Below are positions 1 through 5,919 of a stretch of 5,919 nt of DNA, piece by piece. Position 1 is the first letter of the stretch. Every line of letters begins with the position of its first letter. The position numbers and the translations under genes are program-made. The notes beneath the pieces were generated by a model that saw nothing but the letters and a program-made list of their open reading frames with translations, made no database searches and was not told the DNA's origin. The stretch comes from Acidobacteriota bacterium (GTDB lineage: Bacteria > Acidobacteriota > Terriglobia > UBA7540). The DNA is taken from assembly GCA_021827245.1 (NCBI GenBank), contig JAKAWN010000422.1, forward strand, positions 1 through 5,919, given 5' to 3'.

Positions 1-90
1 GATATGAAGTCCTTGAACATCGAACCGCACAAGTTCCATGGCGAATGGAATTACACCATCAAGCCTAGAAAACTCGGAAAAGGCGGCTAG
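1..90 (+). CDS. ISAzo13-type transposase, C-terminal 29 residues
   Basis: Frame 1 is open from the window edge to a TAG at 88-90. The tail contains PHKFHGEWNYTI, resembling the C-terminal 'HGxWNYTI' signature I associate with ISAzo13 (Rhodopirellula-type, DDE_Tnp_ISAZ013) transposases. These enzymes cut and join IS ends with a DDE-type catalytic core, which lies outside the window. The stop falls 5 bp before the inner edge of the terminal inverted repeat, normal for a compact IS. The matching N-terminus is probably the open frame beginning at 5875. The family call comes from recall of the motif, not from a search. Confidence 0.7.
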   Translation, partial: DMKSLNIEPHKFHGEWNYTIKPRKLGKGG

Positions 91-95
91 TCGAG

Positions 96-122
96 TTGTT
101 CAAGTTATTTTGCGGAGGCTCC
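96..122. repeat. IS terminal inverted repeat, right (IRR)
   Basis: Read inward from the outer tip on the minus strand it begins GGAGCCTCCGCAAAATAACT. The left repeat begins GGAGACTCCGCAAAATAACT. The two agree over 27 bp with a single mismatch (position 5, C versus A), including an uninterrupted 22-bp match (96-117 against 5826-5847). Confidence 0.93.
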
Positions 123-125
123 TTA
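123..125. repeat. Target-site duplication TTA (left copy)
   Basis: TTA directly outside the IS right end equals TTA at 5818-5820 directly outside the IS left end. Keeping one copy and deleting the IS restores the helicase reading frame exactly (GGT AAG CGA, Gly-Lys-Arg). That is strong support for a 3-bp duplication even though the repeat is short. Confidence 0.75.
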
Positions 126-2576
126 CCTTGCTGCAAAAGCTGGGCGACAACATGTCCGATGGCATAAGTCTTACCAGTTCCGGGTGGCCCCTGGACGCAG
201 AGCGTTGTCCCATCCAGACGCTCAACCACTTCGGTCAATTGCGAGATCAGTTCCCGCTTTGAGTCGATGAGGAATCCACCACTGTGCCCCACGATCCGGG
301 GTGGTCGCCGGTACAACAAATCCTCAACAGCCCTTGACGTTGTTTGCCCACTCCACCAAGCAGCAACGAAGCGATACACCGCGTCCGCAATTTTGGCGGC
401 GGACACGTACTCATCCGGGATCAGATTCAGGTGTGGCGGTGGGGCACCGTTCTTCGGGCCGATTTTGATGCTTGCCCTGCCGTGGTCCGCGTTAAAGGAT
501 ATAACTTCCGTCCGTTGTTCAAGATTGTGGGCAAAGTAGCAGCGGCTGCCTTCATCAACCTTTGTGTCCTGATCGGGATCAAACGCATATTCGTAGACGT
601 GCGATCTGGCAACCCTCGCCGGTGGCGCGGCGGTGCGATTCAGCCCCGCCAGGCAGTCGAAATCATCGTATAGTTCATGCTCGGTCATTTCGTGGCGGTC
701 AAACATGCGCCAAAACACCGGCTTGGCCTCGCGCCAGTGAAATTCCAAGAGCCAAGCCAACACTTCCGCCACACGCTTGCGTTCTGGGTCCGGGATGCCG
801 CCGGCGGCAATGCTATCGAGCATTTCACGGCACAGAATCGCTGACGGATGGTCCGAACCCGTGAGAGCGTTCTCCTCGCGCTGCTTGGGAGGCTCCGGTG
901 GGACATAGACCACTCCGGATTCTTGTTGGAGCGATCGCAACCAGTTGGCCAGGCCGACCAGAGACCGGCAGTCCACCTCGTTATAGTCACGAATCTCTTT
1001 GAGAATGGCCGAGGATCGCCAGTCTTGGGATTGGCCGCTCTCGAGCCAATGTTGATAGGCGACCACCGATCCAGATGCCGTGACCACCTCTCCCTGGCGC
1101 TGGGGCATGTAGAGACATTCTATATCCTTCAAGGAGTAGCCGGTGCTGCCGATCATCACGCCCTGGCGGACCACCGTGTACAGATCCACAAACACCTGAT
1201 TACGCAGCAGGTCGTCCACTTCCTTCTCGCGGCTGGCGTATTTGCCCATCAGGCGGCGCACCGCGGCGGGTTCGTAGGTCGCATAATGATAAATGTGCAG
1301 CGTCTTATCCTTCTGCCAGCGGGCATACGCCCAATCGATGAAACCTTCGAAGGCTTTCCGTTCCTGTATCTCATTGTGTGCCCACCAATCCTTGAAGCTG
1401 GTTTTATTCTCGTCCAGGTAGACGGCGCCAAACAAATATTCCAGCCCCCCCTCAGCGAACGGGAAGCCCTCCATATCGAAGAAAATATCCCGCGGGGATG
1501 GCGGCGGCAGCCGGGCCAGGCCGCGTCGCGGATCATCTTCCCGTGGCCGGACGACCTCGACTATAGGCTGTGGCTTCCCTTTTGATGCCAATTGCAGAAA
1601 GGCCTGACTTTTCAAGCGCTCGAAGGTCTCTGGCTGGATACGCGGAATGGACTGCAATGTGCTATTCGCCAGGGCCGTCAGTGTCGTTATGCCCGCGGCC
1701 TGAAGCTTTTTGATCTGGGGAAACGTGATACGCGCCACGCGGCAGAGATGATCCTGAACTTCCAATATCTGTGCCGCCACCTTAGACCACCGGCCGTAGG
1801 CGCGATCATTGCCCGGATCGGGCGGCGATCTTGGATCAAAGTCATGCTGGAATGCCAGGTATGCTTTCTTGAGACGTCGGTAGTAGAACACAAATTCGTC
1901 GGTAACAAATGGTGCTTCCCGTTGATCGCCCAGCACAAAGACGAAGCGTTCGGGACGCCGCCGCTGAATCGCTTCGAGCATGTCGCAGTAAGCGCATAGC
2001 TGAATGATGTGGTCAGGCTTGACTGAAAGGGCCAGTTTGGTGTCCCACGGCTCATAGTGCCATGGGCCAAAAACCGAATCCCCCGGGGTCTTTTTGAGAA
2101 AGTCTGGATATCCAGCCAGGGAATCCGTGGCCAGACGTCCTTGATAAACCCTGCTGCGGCCGGCTTTCATTTCGGCAATGGTTCGCTCTGCGGCATTGTC
2201 ATCGTGGGGAATTTCGACGAAGTTACCATCTTGACCTTTGATTTCCTGCACATACTGCGCCTCGTGTGCTGAACCACGTTTTGCCGCCAGTTCCTGATCT
2301 TCGGTCAGCGCGTCAGGTGTAATTGCAGCAAGACTCAGTCCGTCCCAGGGAAGCGTATAGGCTGCGGGAAGTTGATCACGAATTAAATACAGCCGATCCA
2401 TCCATGATCCGAATTCCCCCTCGAGAAACGCCACCACATCATGTGGTGAATAGACCAGAATGCCCCCTTTAAATTGCATGATACATCCATACCATGTATT
2501 CGGTCGAAAGTGTATTGCCTGCTGCCGCACCCAGCGTCGAAAACGAACTTTGGGGGTAGTTGAATCGATGCGCAGG

Positions 2577-2602
2577 CTCTGGTGACAAGAAGTATACCAG
2601 AG
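2577..2602. repeat. Inverted repeat CTCTGGT-N12-ACCAGAG over the putative -10
   Basis: Two perfect 7-bp arms (2577-2583 and 2596-2602) are separated by 12 bp. There is no T-run on either side, so it does not look like an intrinsic terminator. Because it covers the candidate -10 of the downstream gene it could be a repressor-binding site; this is inference. Confidence 0.4.
2591..2599 (-). promoter_or_regulatory. Possible extended -10 promoter for the nuclease-helicase gene
   Basis: The minus strand reads TGGTATACT, an extended -10 (TGn plus TATACT, 5 of 6 consensus). It lies about 110 bp before the chosen ATG at 2479 and just after the stop of the DUF4238-like gene. No convincing -35 lies 16-18 bp upstream, as expected if the extended -10 does the work. 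It sits inside the inverted repeat 2577-2602. Confidence 0.35.
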
Positions 2603-2628
2603 GTGGCACCCATGTAATGAACTGCTGC

Positions 2629-3398
2629 TTATATACCGACAACCTTGAATTCCGGGTTAATCGCTCGAAAGTGTGTGATGGTGCCGTCTGCAGCAACAAA
2701 CGGGAAATCAGGCTTGTGGGCAAACACAAATGCCAACTTGTGGGCAACGCTCCCTCGTTGCTCCAGGGAATTGAGTGCTGCTCTATTCGCGTGTGCAGCG
2801 GCAGCCGGACGAGTCTCAGTAGCGCGTTTGAAGGCGCCTCTCTGGCAGAAGCTTGAGACCAGCAATGTACGTGGGGACAGTGGAAGCAGCATAAGCGTAT
2901 CCTCCGCAAGCAAACTACGGAGGTCGAGAGGAACGATTCCAGTGCGCTGGGTGAGCGTCACAGGGCAGTTGGGTAACACTAAATCTCCGCCTTCTGGCGC
3001 AAGGGCTTCCACGCGCCAACGCCGTTTCTCCAATTGTGGCACTGCCAGTTCGATGGCTTTGGGGATCATGCCGAGAATGGAACCTTTATTCAGTGACACG
3101 GCGTTTGGGTACTTTTGAAACAGCCCGATCAGCTTTGCTCGGTCCGCATCGTTTATGGGCGTGCCTTCTACGGCCATACGTGCTTGGTGCTGTTTCCACA
3201 TTTCGTCGGACTGCAACATATGGAGGGCAAGTTGCTGCACGAACTGCATGGCGTTGGCATCGGCTTGCCGAAGGGCGAGATGACTAAGGCCCGCCGGGCG
3301 ATCATGCCGGCGGGGTCAAATCGCTCCATTTTGCCGGCTGGCGGGCCGGCGGCGGGATTCGTAGCGGCGCCTTTTTTGGTCCTGGCGTGTTTGGGCAT
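2629..3398 (-). pseudogene. DUF4238-like protein, N-terminal part deleted and frame broken
   Basis: Translation should start at the ATG at 3398, which has an excellent ribosome binding site (AAGGGAG, 5-nt spacing) 26 bp after the antitoxin gene, giving MPKHARTKKGAATNPA. This frame carries no recognisable domain beyond about residue 30 and stops at 3168. The recognisable part is in another frame, open from 3315 to the stop at 2629 (ATG at 3249, 206 aa from there). It resembles the C-terminal two-thirds of DUF4238: a helical stretch (LQSDEMWKQH), then a conserved core with LVLPNCPVTL and LLPLSPRTLL, and an Asn-rich tail region with ANRAALNSLEQRG. The family's usual N-terminal HxVPxxYL motif is missing from every frame. 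Joining the two frames needs a -1 shift between 3315 and about 3300, beside GC-rich inverted repeats; no canonical slippery heptamer is visible. Function of DUF4238 is unknown; members often occur in accessory islands. Identification is by motif pattern. Confidence 0.6.
3290..3350. repeat. GC-rich inverted repeats at the DUF4238 frame break
   Basis: CCCGCCGG (3290-3297) and CCGGCGGG (3307-3314) form a perfect 8-bp stem with a 9-nt loop. CCGGC (3334-3338) and GCCGG (3345-3349) form a second small stem. The cluster coincides with the point where the DUF4238-like gene changes frame, so it may mark a deletion or slippage scar. Confidence 0.5.
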
Positions 3399-3424
3399 CA
3401 ACACTCCCTTGTACATTGGAGAAT

Positions 3425-3757
3425 TTATTTCCTTCCGAACTCCCGGATTAACTCAGGTCGCTTGTCCAATAAGCGAAGCAAACGTAGTGCCGGACCTGAC
3501 GGTTGGCCGCGCCCTTGCTCCCACGCATGGACGGTCTGGACCGAGGCATTAATGATGCCCGCAAATACCGCCTGACTTACCCGCACCTTTTTCTTGCGAA
3601 GCGCGGTTATTTGCCTGGGTGTTATTGGCCGAGGCGGATCGGGTAATTCCACATCACGTATGGTAACGGTGGAATGTTTTCCCTGCGCCCAATCCAGGGC
3701 ATCCGCAAGCCCGGTCTTGATTTCGTCATAATACATGTTGCTGTTAACTTTCTTCAT
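3425..3757 (-). CDS. higA: HigA-type XRE-family antitoxin
   Basis: This 110-residue protein starts at 3757 with AAGGAAA upstream, 2 bp after the stop of the toxin remnant. Residues 1-50 form the toxin-facing N-terminal part typical of this antitoxin family (YYDEIKTGLADALDWAQG). Residues 50-105 are a helix-turn-helix of the XRE/Cro type: ITALRKKKVRVSQAVFAGII is the first part, and SVQTVHAWEQGRGQPSG is the recognition region with the family's WExGxxxPSG signature. Such antitoxins bind a RelE/HigB-type mRNA interferase and repress their own operon through the HTH domain. No frame break or missing segment is seen, so it looks intact although its partner toxin is truncated. The order toxin then antitoxin is the HigBA order. 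A stand-alone regulator is the alternative reading. Confidence 0.85.
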   Translation of the reverse strand: MKKVNSNMYYDEIKTGLADALDWAQGKHSTVTIRDVELPDPPRPITPRQITALRKKKVRVSQAVFAGIINASVQTVHAWEQGRGQPSGPALRLLRLLDKRPELIREFGRK

Positions 3758-3759
3758 CG

Positions 3760-3873
3760 TTATTTCCTTGTCTTACTGAATCGGTGCTGCATCGCAAGAA
3801 GCGCATCATCCGACACCCCGTGTGCTCTGAGAACTCGCGTGACTCCGGCAAATTCCACAAACATACGTTTCAT
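3760..3873 (-). pseudogene. higB: RelE/HigB-type toxin remnant (37 aa)
   Basis: Start at the ATG at 3873 with AGGA about 8 nt upstream. The product begins MKRMFVEFAGVTRVLRAHG and continues SDDALLAMQ. This is a clear match to the N-terminus of HigB/RelE toxins, which start 'MKRxFVExPxFTR' followed by a helix '(S/T)DDxLxxLQ'. Family members are about 105-120 residues; here the protein ends with HRFSKTRK after residue 29, so roughly 70-80 residues are missing, including the segment usually reading 'PEAGDVIPGTGGLRK' and the C-terminal catalytic sheet. The stop TAA is 2 bp before the antitoxin ATG, so the deletion left the gene junction undisturbed. The toxin should be inactive; its short reading frame may still support translation of the antitoxin. 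Confidence 0.7.
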
Positions 3874-3883
3874 GTATCCATCC

Positions 3884-3902
3884 TGTACTATTTTATAGCA
3901 CA
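3884..3902. promoter_or_regulatory. Palindromic operator candidate over the higBA -10
   Basis: A 19-bp imperfect palindrome, TGTACTAT-TTT-ATAGCACA, has arms that match in 7 of 8 positions. It covers the -10 box, the usual place for an autoregulatory HigA operator. The binding partner is inferred from position only. Confidence 0.45.
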
Positions 3903-3920
3903 AAATGGCGCGCCTCGCAA
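3892..3920 (-). promoter_or_regulatory. Promoter of the higB-higA-DUF4238 operon
   Basis: On the minus strand TTGCGA (3915-3920) is followed after exactly 17 bp by TATAAA (3892-3897), preceded by TG one base further upstream (extended -10). Transcription would start a few bases before the ribosome binding site of the toxin remnant, 19 bp downstream of the -10. The spacer contains the 8-bp palindrome GGCGCGCC (3907-3914). Confidence 0.6.
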
Positions 3921-3935
3921 ATACTTTTTCATTTT

Positions 3936-4088
3936 GTAACCGTTCCCGGGCCAGAAACATCGAAAAATAAGGCTTTTTGCGATATTTAATGGCTCAAAGC
4001 ACAGTAAAATTGCCATCCGCGACGCCAAAACCAGAATAAAACCGCGTTTTTTTTGAAAAAACGCCAGTTTTGGCCCGTGAACGGTTAC
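3936..4088. mobile_element. 153-bp inverted-repeat element, possible MITE
   Basis: GTAACCGTTCCCGGGCCA (3936-3953) is repeated inverted at 4071-4088 with one mismatch; allowing one more mismatch the arms extend to about 23 bp. Inside are a nested pair GCCAAAAC (4024-4031) / GTTTTGGC (4067-4074) and a 9-bp stem GCGTTTTTT / AAAAAACGC with a 3-nt loop (4044-4064). The interior is AT-rich, unlike the neighbours, and codes for nothing recognisable. Size and structure fit a miniature inverted-repeat transposable element or a large cruciform. No target duplication is visible outside the arms, which weakens the MITE reading. The left arm ends 16 bp from the -35 of the TA operon. Confidence 0.45.
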
Positions 4089-4162
4089 GATGCCCCACAC
4101 CCGCGAGGACCGGTAGTGATGAGATTATACGGACAACCAGGCGAGAGCAGTAGCGGCCAAGT

Positions 4163-4315
4163 CTCGCCTCGGCGATCAACTTGGTGGTATTCATTGAACG
4201 TACGGCCGTTGCGCCAGGCAGACTCGTATCGCAACTCCTTGAAGTCGGGGGTCACAATCACAATATCAGTGAATACCTATTCCATCCGGTGACTTGCCAG
4301 ATGCCCGCCTCATAG
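4163..4315 (+). pseudogene. C-terminal tail of a TrbB/VirB11-like ATPase, copy 1
   Basis: The plus-strand frame from 4163 reads LASAINLVVFIERTAVAPGR, then LVSQLLEVGGHNHNISEYLF, and stops at 4313-4315. It resembles the final strand-helix-strand segment of TrbB/VirB11-type secretion ATPases ('IAxAINLVVFI...GRRVxxxxEVxGHD...Y'), which power DNA or protein transfer across the envelope. A stop codon lies four codons upstream (4151-4153), so only the tail remains and the Walker motifs are absent. Comparison with the second copy at 4564 shows changes concentrated at third codon positions, so this was a real coding frame. The family name is inference from a short segment. Confidence 0.45.
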
Positions 4316-4467
4316 CGATGGTCACTTCTCGGCGCCGCGCCAGGGATCGCCGGGGAGGCGGCCTGGGCCGATAGCCCGCTGGAGCCGAGGGCTTCAGCGC
4401 GCAGGAACGAATACCTCCCGCGTGTTTGCAGGGCGTCGATCCAGTATTCCAGCGATGCGGCGGGCAT
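4266..4467 (-). pseudogene. AbiEi-type antitoxin, N-terminal winged-helix remnant with frameshift
   Basis: From the ATG at 4467, preceded by TTGAGG, the frame reads MPAASLEYWIDALQTRGRYS then FLRAEALGSSGLSAQAA. This matches the N-terminal winged helix of AbiEi-like antitoxins ('xxYWIDxLQxRGRYTFxREEAxxxSGLSPEAV'). After about residue 37 the homology moves to a second minus-strand frame (LARRREVTIAMRRASG), corresponding to the 'LxRRGxV' wing, which ends in a TGA at 4266-4268; the first frame runs on to 4258. The rest of the family's roughly 200 residues or more and any AbiEii nucleotidyltransferase partner are missing. AbiE systems are type IV toxin-antitoxin modules linked to phage resistance. 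The remnant overlaps the end of the TrbB-like tail on the other strand. Confidence 0.55.
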
Positions 4468-4563
4468 GGATTGCCTCAAATATCGTTCTGCATAAACAGA
4501 TAGCCAATGTCCGTTTACGCAGACTAATATATCAGCGTTCCCGGTCCGGGACAATAACACTCC

Positions 4564-4650
4564 CTCGCCTCGGCGATCAATCTGGTGGTCTTTATTGAAC
4601 GGATTGCCGATGCTCCAGGCAGGGTGGTATCCCAGTTCGTGGAGATGGCT
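4564..4650 (+). pseudogene. C-terminal tail of a TrbB/VirB11-like ATPase, copy 2
   Basis: The plus frame from 4564 gives LASAINLVVFIERIADAPGR then VVSQFVEM, aligned without gaps to copy 1 at 4163. Over 28 codons, 12 are identical, 10 differ synonymously and 6 change the amino acid, mostly conservatively. The first 17 bases (4564-4580) are identical to 4163-4179. A TAA at 4555-4557 lies just upstream, so this too is only a tail. Downstream the frame stays open but loses resemblance to copy 1 and then runs antisense through the helicase gene, which is not evidence of coding. The two copies are diverged paralogues, not a recent duplication. Confidence 0.45.
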
Positions 4651-4709
4651 AAATCCGATAGCGAGAAACCGCTGAAAGGAACACCCAAAGGCTTGTCGGC
4701 GGGCATTAT

Positions 4710-5820
4710 CTACTTCGTTGCCACGGATGTCCGCGTTGCCAACTCTTCCGTGTATTCCCCAATGCGGCAGTACAGATTCACCAGTCGCATTTGCTCCACA
4801 GTCTGGCATCGCGTCATCATAATTCTTGGTGAACCGACCACGATGGCCAGACATTTGGCCCGTGAAATCGCCACGTTCAGGCGGTTACGGTGCAGTAGGA
4901 ATTCCGCACCTCGGGGCGCATCCTCCAAGGACGAACAGCACATGGAAACGATTACCACCGGGGCTTCTTGGCCCTGGAAGCGATCCACACTGCCAACGCG
5001 GGCGGAGGGGCCAAGCCGTTTTTTAAGCCGTTGCACCTGCATGTTGTATGGCGCGACAAATAGGATGTCGTCCTGCAACCTCAACCGCCGCCTTTGGCCA
5101 TCATCTTCGAACTGGGTCGACAGTAACTCGCCAACAATGGCGGCGATGACCTCGACCTCTTCATCGCTGCACTGGGTGTTCCCTACATGTTCAACGGGCA
5201 CATAAAGCAAACCCGTTCCCCTCTTGACGTGCTTGGCGCCGGGTACGGGCAAAATGCGGCGTCTCGACGTGCTGGGGTGCGCTTCCAGCCGGCCTTCGTA
5301 TACGGCGTCTGAAATAAACCGGCACACTTCTGGGTGCAGCCGCCGTGTAACGTTTAGAAACACCCCGAATTCTGGCGGTATCGTCTGCCGGCCGTTGAGC
5401 AGGTATTCCAGGCCCGACTGGCCGCTTTCCCCCGGATGCGATCCTTGAATCGGCTGGGATAACTGCATCTGATCACCTACCAGCAGCAGGTTTTCGGTGG
5501 CCAAACCGACCCCAACCACGTTAGCCAGGCAGAATTGCCCAGCCTCATCTACGAACAGGTAATCCAATGACTTGGCCAGTTCTGGCCGCACGAATACCCA
5601 GGCCGTGCCGCCGACAACCACACCGCCGCTGGCCAATTCCGCCGCGGCCGCATCAGCTTCGATCCGCTGGATATGCCCGGCCTGTAGGAGCGGTTCATCG
5701 CTATCTCCACCCACCTTCACCAACCGCGCGGCAATGTGGCGGGACGTACACGCCTCATGAACGGCTTTGAGAGCGTTGAGTATGGCCTTATGGCTCGTGG
5801 CGGTGATACCGACTCGCTTA
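4710..5820 (-). pseudogene. TM0106-type nuclease-helicase, C-terminal SF1 helicase part, separated by the IS
   Basis: The native sequence begins at Lys786 (codon 5817-5819, KRVGITATSHKAI, motif Ia) and runs to residue 1154. Motifs in order: DEAGQ (876-880, Walker B), GDQMQLSQP (900-908, motif III), NVTRRLHPEV (940-949), FVAPYNMQVQ (1038-1047, motif IV), GSVDRFQGQE (1061-1070, motif V), LNVAISRAK (1099-1107, motif VI). This is the AAA_11/AAA_12 arrangement of UPF1/DNA2-like SF1 helicases. The end, VEQMRLVNLYCR plus a short tail, is normal for the family, so only the 5' part is lost. Walker A lies in the other fragment, so this piece alone cannot bind ATP normally. An in-frame GTG at 5853-5855 inside the IS could start translation across the junction (VAICSSYFAESPKRV). 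Together the fragments equal one full-length protein, in permuted order. Confidence 0.9.
5818..5820. repeat. Target-site duplication TTA (right copy)
   Basis: TTA lies immediately outside the left IS end and is the partner of 123-125. The duplicated bases are part of the Gly785-Lys786 codons of the helicase. Confidence 0.75.
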
Positions 5821-5847
5821 GGAGACTCCGCAAAATAACTTGAACAA
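5821..5847. repeat. IS terminal inverted repeat, left (IRL)
   Basis: It begins GGAGACTCCGCAAAATAACT and pairs with 96-122 in 26 of 27 positions. Confidence 0.93.
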
Positions 5848-5874
5848 ATTGCCACGGGATGTTAGATTGAATGC

Positions 5875-5919
5875 ATGGTTCGTGAAGCAGGATATCGGGA
5901 GCGGTTGTTGGCGTTGTTG
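5875..5919 (+). CDS. Probable IS transposase, N-terminal 15 residues
   Basis: ATG at 5875 opens MVREAGYRERLLALL, continuing past the window edge. A TAG in this frame at 5863-5865 leaves this ATG as the only standard start nearby. No strong ribosome binding site is visible (GGGA lies about 15 bp away), common for IS transposases. Its place just inside the left inverted repeat and its orientation towards the C-terminus seen at 1-90 identify it; the 15 residues themselves are not diagnostic. Confidence 0.55.
   Translation, partial: MVREAGYRERLLALL

Follow-up and report, generated by a model that had tools for sequence, protein, structure and literature searches.

How does a gene split by an insertion sequence (IS) come to lie in a contig with its end ahead of its beginning? 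The question is raised by a stretch of 5,919 nucleotides from contig JAKAWN010000422.1 (assembly GCA_021827245.1), the whole of which is called the window here. On its minus strand, read from right to left, it carries the C-terminal part of a nuclease-helicase gene, then a cluster of gene remnants, and then the N-terminal part of that gene, with an IS end at either edge (Table 1). A sequence-only reading had described this permuted order, which the analysis confirmed, and had concluded that the 5,698-bp segment 123-5820 must be closed through the IS, either as a circle or as an IS-joined tandem unit. The order is instead caused by a joint without any IS in the middle of the window, and the permuted, IS-split helicase is most likely a product of ordinary genome decay and no new kind of circular DNA. 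The history that we favour, with about an even chance of being right, is an old chromosomal direct tandem duplication of the helicase segment, which acquired its permuted look when the assembly ended in the IS.

The complete gene encodes a fusion of a TM0106-type RecB-like nuclease with a helicase. P0002, an intact relative 1,155 amino acids long, shows 87% identity over the N part, and a literature search did not find TM0106, RecB and helicase together in one paper. In two contigs from Planctomycetota metagenome-assembled genomes (L001 and L002) the gene is uninterrupted. The N and C parts of the window correspond to 8051-10393 and 10391-11469 of L001 and to 7763-10124 and 10122-11212 of L002, with a TAA overlap at 10391-10393 in the former and at 10122-10124 in the latter, and the identity to L002 is about equal for the two halves (88.3% and 89.6%), as for one gene. 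Since the halves adjoin in both relatives with an overlap of exactly 3 bp, comparison shows that one simple IS insertion split one helicase gene, and this element of the sequence-only reading is upheld. The representative of the protein cluster for the C part (P0121) is identical to that of the window; the cluster comprises 4 sequences on 6 contigs, the longest of 46,952 bp. Copies of this helicase gene occur within the family, for the sister genome G409 contains two starts of the gene, with 91.7% identity over 228 bp, and two ends, with 97.6% identity over 336 bp.

The recognition of IS ends at both window edges was equally well founded. Their inverted repeats differ by 1 mismatch in 27 positions (96% identity when taken as 28-nt arms, 96-123 and 5820-5847), and the two ends are oriented alike, as within one element. 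The probable transposase start reads MVREAGYRERLLALL (5875-5919), and positions 1-90 match the end of PF07592 (positions 288-308) with 19.1 bits, which is under the cut-off of 26.9, only 29 residues being available. The IS interior lies outside the window, and no direct repeat common to the two window ends was found. Among plasmid records the IS end had seven weak matches (22% covered, 92.6%, E 0.3), two of which are annotated as ISAzo13 family transposase; across the phylum it was matched in 1 of 199 sampled genomes, by short matches only.

What these ends can tell about the window depends on the behaviour of the same IS in G410, the only one of 28 searched genomes (members of the G001 and G002 family, 17 of which match part of the window) with 100% identity over 1,561 bp. 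G410 has eight contigs that each carry one end of this IS, four per side (all 20 candidates scored), with the IS boundary 109-126 bp from the contig end in each, and at least four other insertion sites. Likewise, the IS boundaries of the window lie 122 and 99 bp from its edges. Because a multicopy IS stands at contig ends in this way, the left and right IS ends of the window may come from different copies, and closure through the IS is no longer compelled. A misassembly running through the multicopy IS, the alternative considered from the start, was not seen either, as the IS simply ends the contig. The lengths of the overhangs were also considered as proof of a single assembly, and this idea was dropped: no single word length accounts for both the window values (122 and 99 bp) and the G410 range (109-126 bp). 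The two TTA copies beside the IS ends, put forward earlier as evidence of a single insertion, do form a true target duplication, but they are weak by themselves because TTA or TAA adjoins this IS at 8/8 of its ends in G410 (background 1.3% of positions in the loci counted); the real evidence is the exact meeting point of the two gene halves in the relatives.

The joint that does account for the order lies at 3262-3279, where the start of an aminotransferase gene gives way to the 3' part of a DUF4238 gene. The switch is completed within about 18 bp, and the helicase N part follows the DUF4238 remnant. In L002, whose full-length DUF4238 gene matches PF14022, this gene stands directly upstream of the helicase, and in G409 it stands directly upstream of a truncated helicase. 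At the joint, sequence from downstream of the helicase thus meets sequence from upstream of it with the orientation unchanged, as it would in a direct tandem duplication or in a circle formed from the same segment. If the unit is cut at this joint it reads plainly, in the order DUF4238, helicase N part, IS, helicase C part, AbiE, HigA and aminotransferase start. Exact words common to the C67 aminotransferase (contig C67 of G410) and DUF4238 do not exceed 9 bp for the gene of L002 or 10 bp for that of G409, the window's own DUF4238 being judged here from these relatives. Bacteria are known to form tandem duplications whose joints have little or no homology. The proposal of a circle or an IS-joined tandem unit therefore stands in that both classes fit, a tandem unit being likely, and falls in that the IS is unsupported as the joint.

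A chromosomal counterpart of the helicase-C side is present in G410 on contig C67 (46,952 bp), which begins 119 bp inside the IS and carries the identical helicase C part. Window positions 5919-4359 are identical to it over 1,561 bp without a difference. The contig continues through AbiEi, AbiEii, two 151-bp repeats, an intact aminotransferase gene (3704-4939, PF00155) and thiL, tsaE and ruvX, each of which scores over its NCBIfam cut-off; the helicase-C flank is chromosomal in G410, and this also counts against obligatory closure through the IS. After the helicase C part the window keeps the order and orientation of C67, with an ATPase fragment, the AbiEi start, the AbiEii end, an ATPase fragment and the aminotransferase start. 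The 151-bp repeats of C67 are replaced in the window by a small inverted-repeat element, a toxin remnant and a HigA-type antitoxin gene. In G409 the aminotransferase gene adjoins a divergent purM, and the helicase-AbiE stretch of G410 may have been inserted between the two genes. The spacer at 3250-4730 has matches in 10 of 392 sampled genomes, short except in G002. The 151-bp repeat (L055 3268-3418 and 3542-3692) occurs at many places in G410; when C67:1-4939 was compared with that genome, at least 51 matches were found (best 40 of 187 candidates), most of them to the two 151-bp repeat stretches.

From these observations the following history can be proposed, in which the whole window would be one IS-to-IS piece of an ordinary Planctomycetota chromosome rather than a replicon. 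A single ISAzo13-like IS inserted at TAA within the nuclease-helicase gene, as the comparison with intact relatives shows, in a setting which in G410 lies near AbiE genes and the aminotransferase gene. The stretch from mid-DUF4238 through the helicase and AbiE to about codon 46 of the aminotransferase gene would then be, or formerly have been, repeated directly in tandem, illegitimate recombination at about 3262-3279 having connected the end of one unit with the start of the next. The window copy has decayed through a 1,464-bp microhomology deletion in AbiE and truncation of the toxin gene. A homologous exchange between the helicase copies, with the crossover in the C part, may subsequently have placed the same IS and the identical 1,561-bp stretch ahead of the diverged copy; this step was added because the uneven divergence from C67 is not explained by one recent duplication. 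Finally, to judge from the contig ends, short-read assembly probably halted in the multicopy IS on both sides, so that the unit would be shown cut at the IS and take on its circularly permuted look.

Our preference for the tandem duplication rests on the chromosomal setting of the same helicase-C flank in G410, on the two helicase starts and two helicase ends that G409 also has, and on the absence of any replication family from the 17 open reading frames (ORFs) of the window that were scanned against Pfam, out of 44 of at least 50 amino acids (origins were not sought). A set of ten among these 17 ORFs had no Pfam match. Several observations weigh on the other side. G410 shows no second copy, its N part and DUF4238 being absent (all 37 candidates scored), and HigA was not found there among the 40 of 73 candidates that were scored. 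Because purM is missing from G410 as well (sought in 7 genomes, 6 of which match), this side may simply lie outside the bin; an upstream island gene, sought in 4 genomes and matched in 2, was likewise not found in G410. Divergence from C67 is uneven, with 0/1,561 bp and 0/56 bp different in two stretches, 78% identity over 4163-4363 and 8/147 bp different at the aminotransferase start, a mosaic that exchange between helicase copies would yield. The element at 3936-4088 lacks a target duplication and is a dispersed repeat, so that another rearrangement or an assembly switch may have taken place there. A circle would have the same joint at 3262-3279, and no independent copy of that joint was found as an exact 32-base word in the viral contigs or in 97 loci (0/97).

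The strongest competitor, although we consider it unlikely, is that the assembly combined sequence from two strains or loci, so that no single molecule ever had this order. Identity to C67 is indeed patchy (100%, 78% and 95%), the dispersed repeat at 3936-4088 without its target duplication offers a possible switch point for a short-read assembler, and variant helicase proteins are on record, one of 99% identity from a 4,444-bp contig (P0001) and one of mixed character (P0122). However, both sides of the 3936-4088 element are in C67 order, and a random chimera is disfavoured by the collinearity with C67 after the helicase C part. A repeat-driven assembly error is disfavoured as well, since the sequence shared at the breaks, 5 bp at 4359-4363 and no word of more than 10 bp at 3262-3279, is too short; such breaks are typical of real deletions or duplications and not of repeat-driven misassemblies. 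P0122 itself is a database protein of 301 amino acids that begins with what resembles antisense helicase-N sequence and continues as a helicase C part free of the IS; it is perhaps derived from a chimeric contig.

Were the segment an extrachromosomal circle, excised by recombination from a duplicated or single locus, it would measure about 7 kb (5,698 bp and an IS put at about 1.3 kb from relatives of 410-420 amino acids). Such a circle would share the joint and would close the order through one IS, and contig ends inside a multicopy IS are no argument against it. We nevertheless hold it to be improbable, given the chromosomal helicase-C flank and the scanned ORFs described above. A plasmid origin was considered and rejected: among 72,556 plasmid records 10 match, each covering 2-6% and the helicase only. 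In the viral contigs the IS-end word was not found, and protein scans recovered only one helicase relative, IMGVR_UViG_3300043775_004952. More doubtful still, in our view, is a genuine circle of about 7 kb that is excised repeatedly or maintains itself in a Planctomycetota population, with the non-IS joint and the IS-split defence-island nuclease-helicase. Directly repeated IS ends flank the segment as they would in an IS-mediated amplification or translocatable unit with the IS as the joint between units, whether IS26-like or of the non-canonical single-IS type, but this is very improbable: in intact relatives the sequences on either side of the IS lie next to each other, with a 3-bp duplication, which means that the IS joins nothing distant, and the distant joint lies elsewhere and has no IS. 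The suggestion of IS26-type movement likewise loses its footing, as the IS resembles ISAzo13 and not IS6 and made a plain insertion with a 3-bp duplication in the helicase. No more credible is an account without any helicase duplication, by which an IS-ended fragment, from the helicase C part to the aminotransferase start, moved into the DUF4238 gene. In its favour, DUF4238 is cut where the fragment starts, but another IS-ended fragment would have had to land by chance next to the helicase N part, one event more than a tandem duplication.

Table 1. Features of the 5,919-nucleotide window (percentages are sequence identities)
Feature	Position	Strand	Remarks
IS 3' end, ISAzo13-like	1..122	+	Transposase C-terminus 1-90, inverted repeat 96-122; identical (100%) ends on four G410 contigs
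Target duplication TTA, helicase-N side	123..125		3-bp overlap of halves in L001 and L002
Helicase N part	123..2478	-	TM0106-type RecB-like nuclease (RNase_H_2) and Walker A region; IS cut after residue ~803
DUF4238 gene, 3' part, upstream neighbour of helicase	2629..3268	-	Roughly first 150 codons gone; 78% to L002 7062-7683 and G409 C3
Aminotransferase-start/DUF4238 joint, no IS	3262..3279		Source of permuted order
Aminotransferase, first ~46 codons and leader, broken	3279..3425	-	139/147 bp identical to G410 C67:3695-3841
HigA/NadS/MqsA-type antitoxin gene, intact, 110 aa	3425..3757	-	PF15731; P0241 identical
Probable partner-toxin remnant, N-terminal piece only	3760..3960	-	62-75% over 40-45 residues to pieces upstream of HigA in L069-L071
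Small element with GTAACCG inverted ends	3936..4088		92% to G410 C63:22690-22845 (L063); no target duplication in window
Secretion/conjugation-type ATPase C-terminus fragment, second copy	4163..4308	+	Diverged from C67
AbiEii, last 14 codons with stop and 14 bp beyond	4308..4363	-	Identical to C67:3041-3096
5-bp microhomology of deletion	4359..4363		1,464-bp deletion; most of AbiEi and AbiEii lost
AbiEi, first ~36 codons	4359..4467	-	100% to C67; start codon judged from AbiEi model match
Same ATPase C-terminus fragment, first copy	4560..4660	+	84% to L002 15543-15643
Helicase C part	about 4728..5820	-	AAA_12, UvrD_C_2; fused to IS-derived start codons
Target duplication TTA, helicase-C side	5818..5820		3-bp overlap of halves in L001 and L002
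IS 5' end, same kind	5821..5919	+	Inverted repeat 5821-5847; probable transposase start 5875

Between the helicase halves, the antitoxin gene is intact and its presumed toxin gene is truncated; the identical protein P0241 is one sequence on 15 contigs, the longest of 16,531 bp, and the toxin remnant has no Pfam match. The C63 copy of the small element is bounded by a perfect 8-bp duplication, CATAGAAC, and partial copies occur elsewhere in G410; we take the GTAA ends and 8-bp duplications to suit an IS66-derived small element. A further event may have occurred at this element, and a chimera may lie there, though both of its sides follow C67. The ATPase fragments (window 4163-4242 and 4560-4660; L055 1305-1377 and 3159-3231) are direct repeats that flank AbiEi-AbiEii, and such C-terminus fragments recur elsewhere in several genomes of the family; the full ATPase protein in L002 (15466-16248) matches PF00437. 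The stretch 157-11229 of L002 is an apparent defence island, encoding a type IIG-like methyltransferase, a PD-Lambda-4_A-like protein of 1,247 amino acids, a protein of 143 amino acids, a DUF4238-Pers-like protein and the nuclease-helicase with its MkoA-like helicase domain. The viral-collection contig named above (L020 / L054) carries a relative of this nuclease-helicase with 41-52% identity (41% and 52% in the two scans).

The case shows how a multicopy IS at contig ends can make a rearranged locus seem circularly permuted, and that the true joint is to be sought inside the contig and not at the IS. It also presents a locus with defence-type genes (nuclease-helicase, DUF4238 and AbiE) that is eroding through IS insertion, duplication and microhomology deletion.

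Among known systems, bacterial tandem duplications are matched by a joint that links a downstream to an upstream point in direct orientation with little common sequence, and they differ in that the window copy has already decayed and that a second copy was not seen, the N part being absent in G410. The IS itself is like members of the ISAzo13 family in its transposase end, which matches the PF07592 end below cut-off, and in its 3-bp target duplication, the length given for the family in PMC10045372; the window holds IS ends only, and so allows no finer classification. IS26 translocatable units (PMC11102541) resemble the window in having a segment between direct IS ends, whereas here the IS belongs to another family and is not the joint, and no circle is shown. 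The single-IS non-canonical amplifications of PMC13423834 have IS-chromosome junctions at both unit ends as the window does, but in them the two ends of one IS join distant loci, whereas in the window they adjoin what are adjacent halves of one gene.

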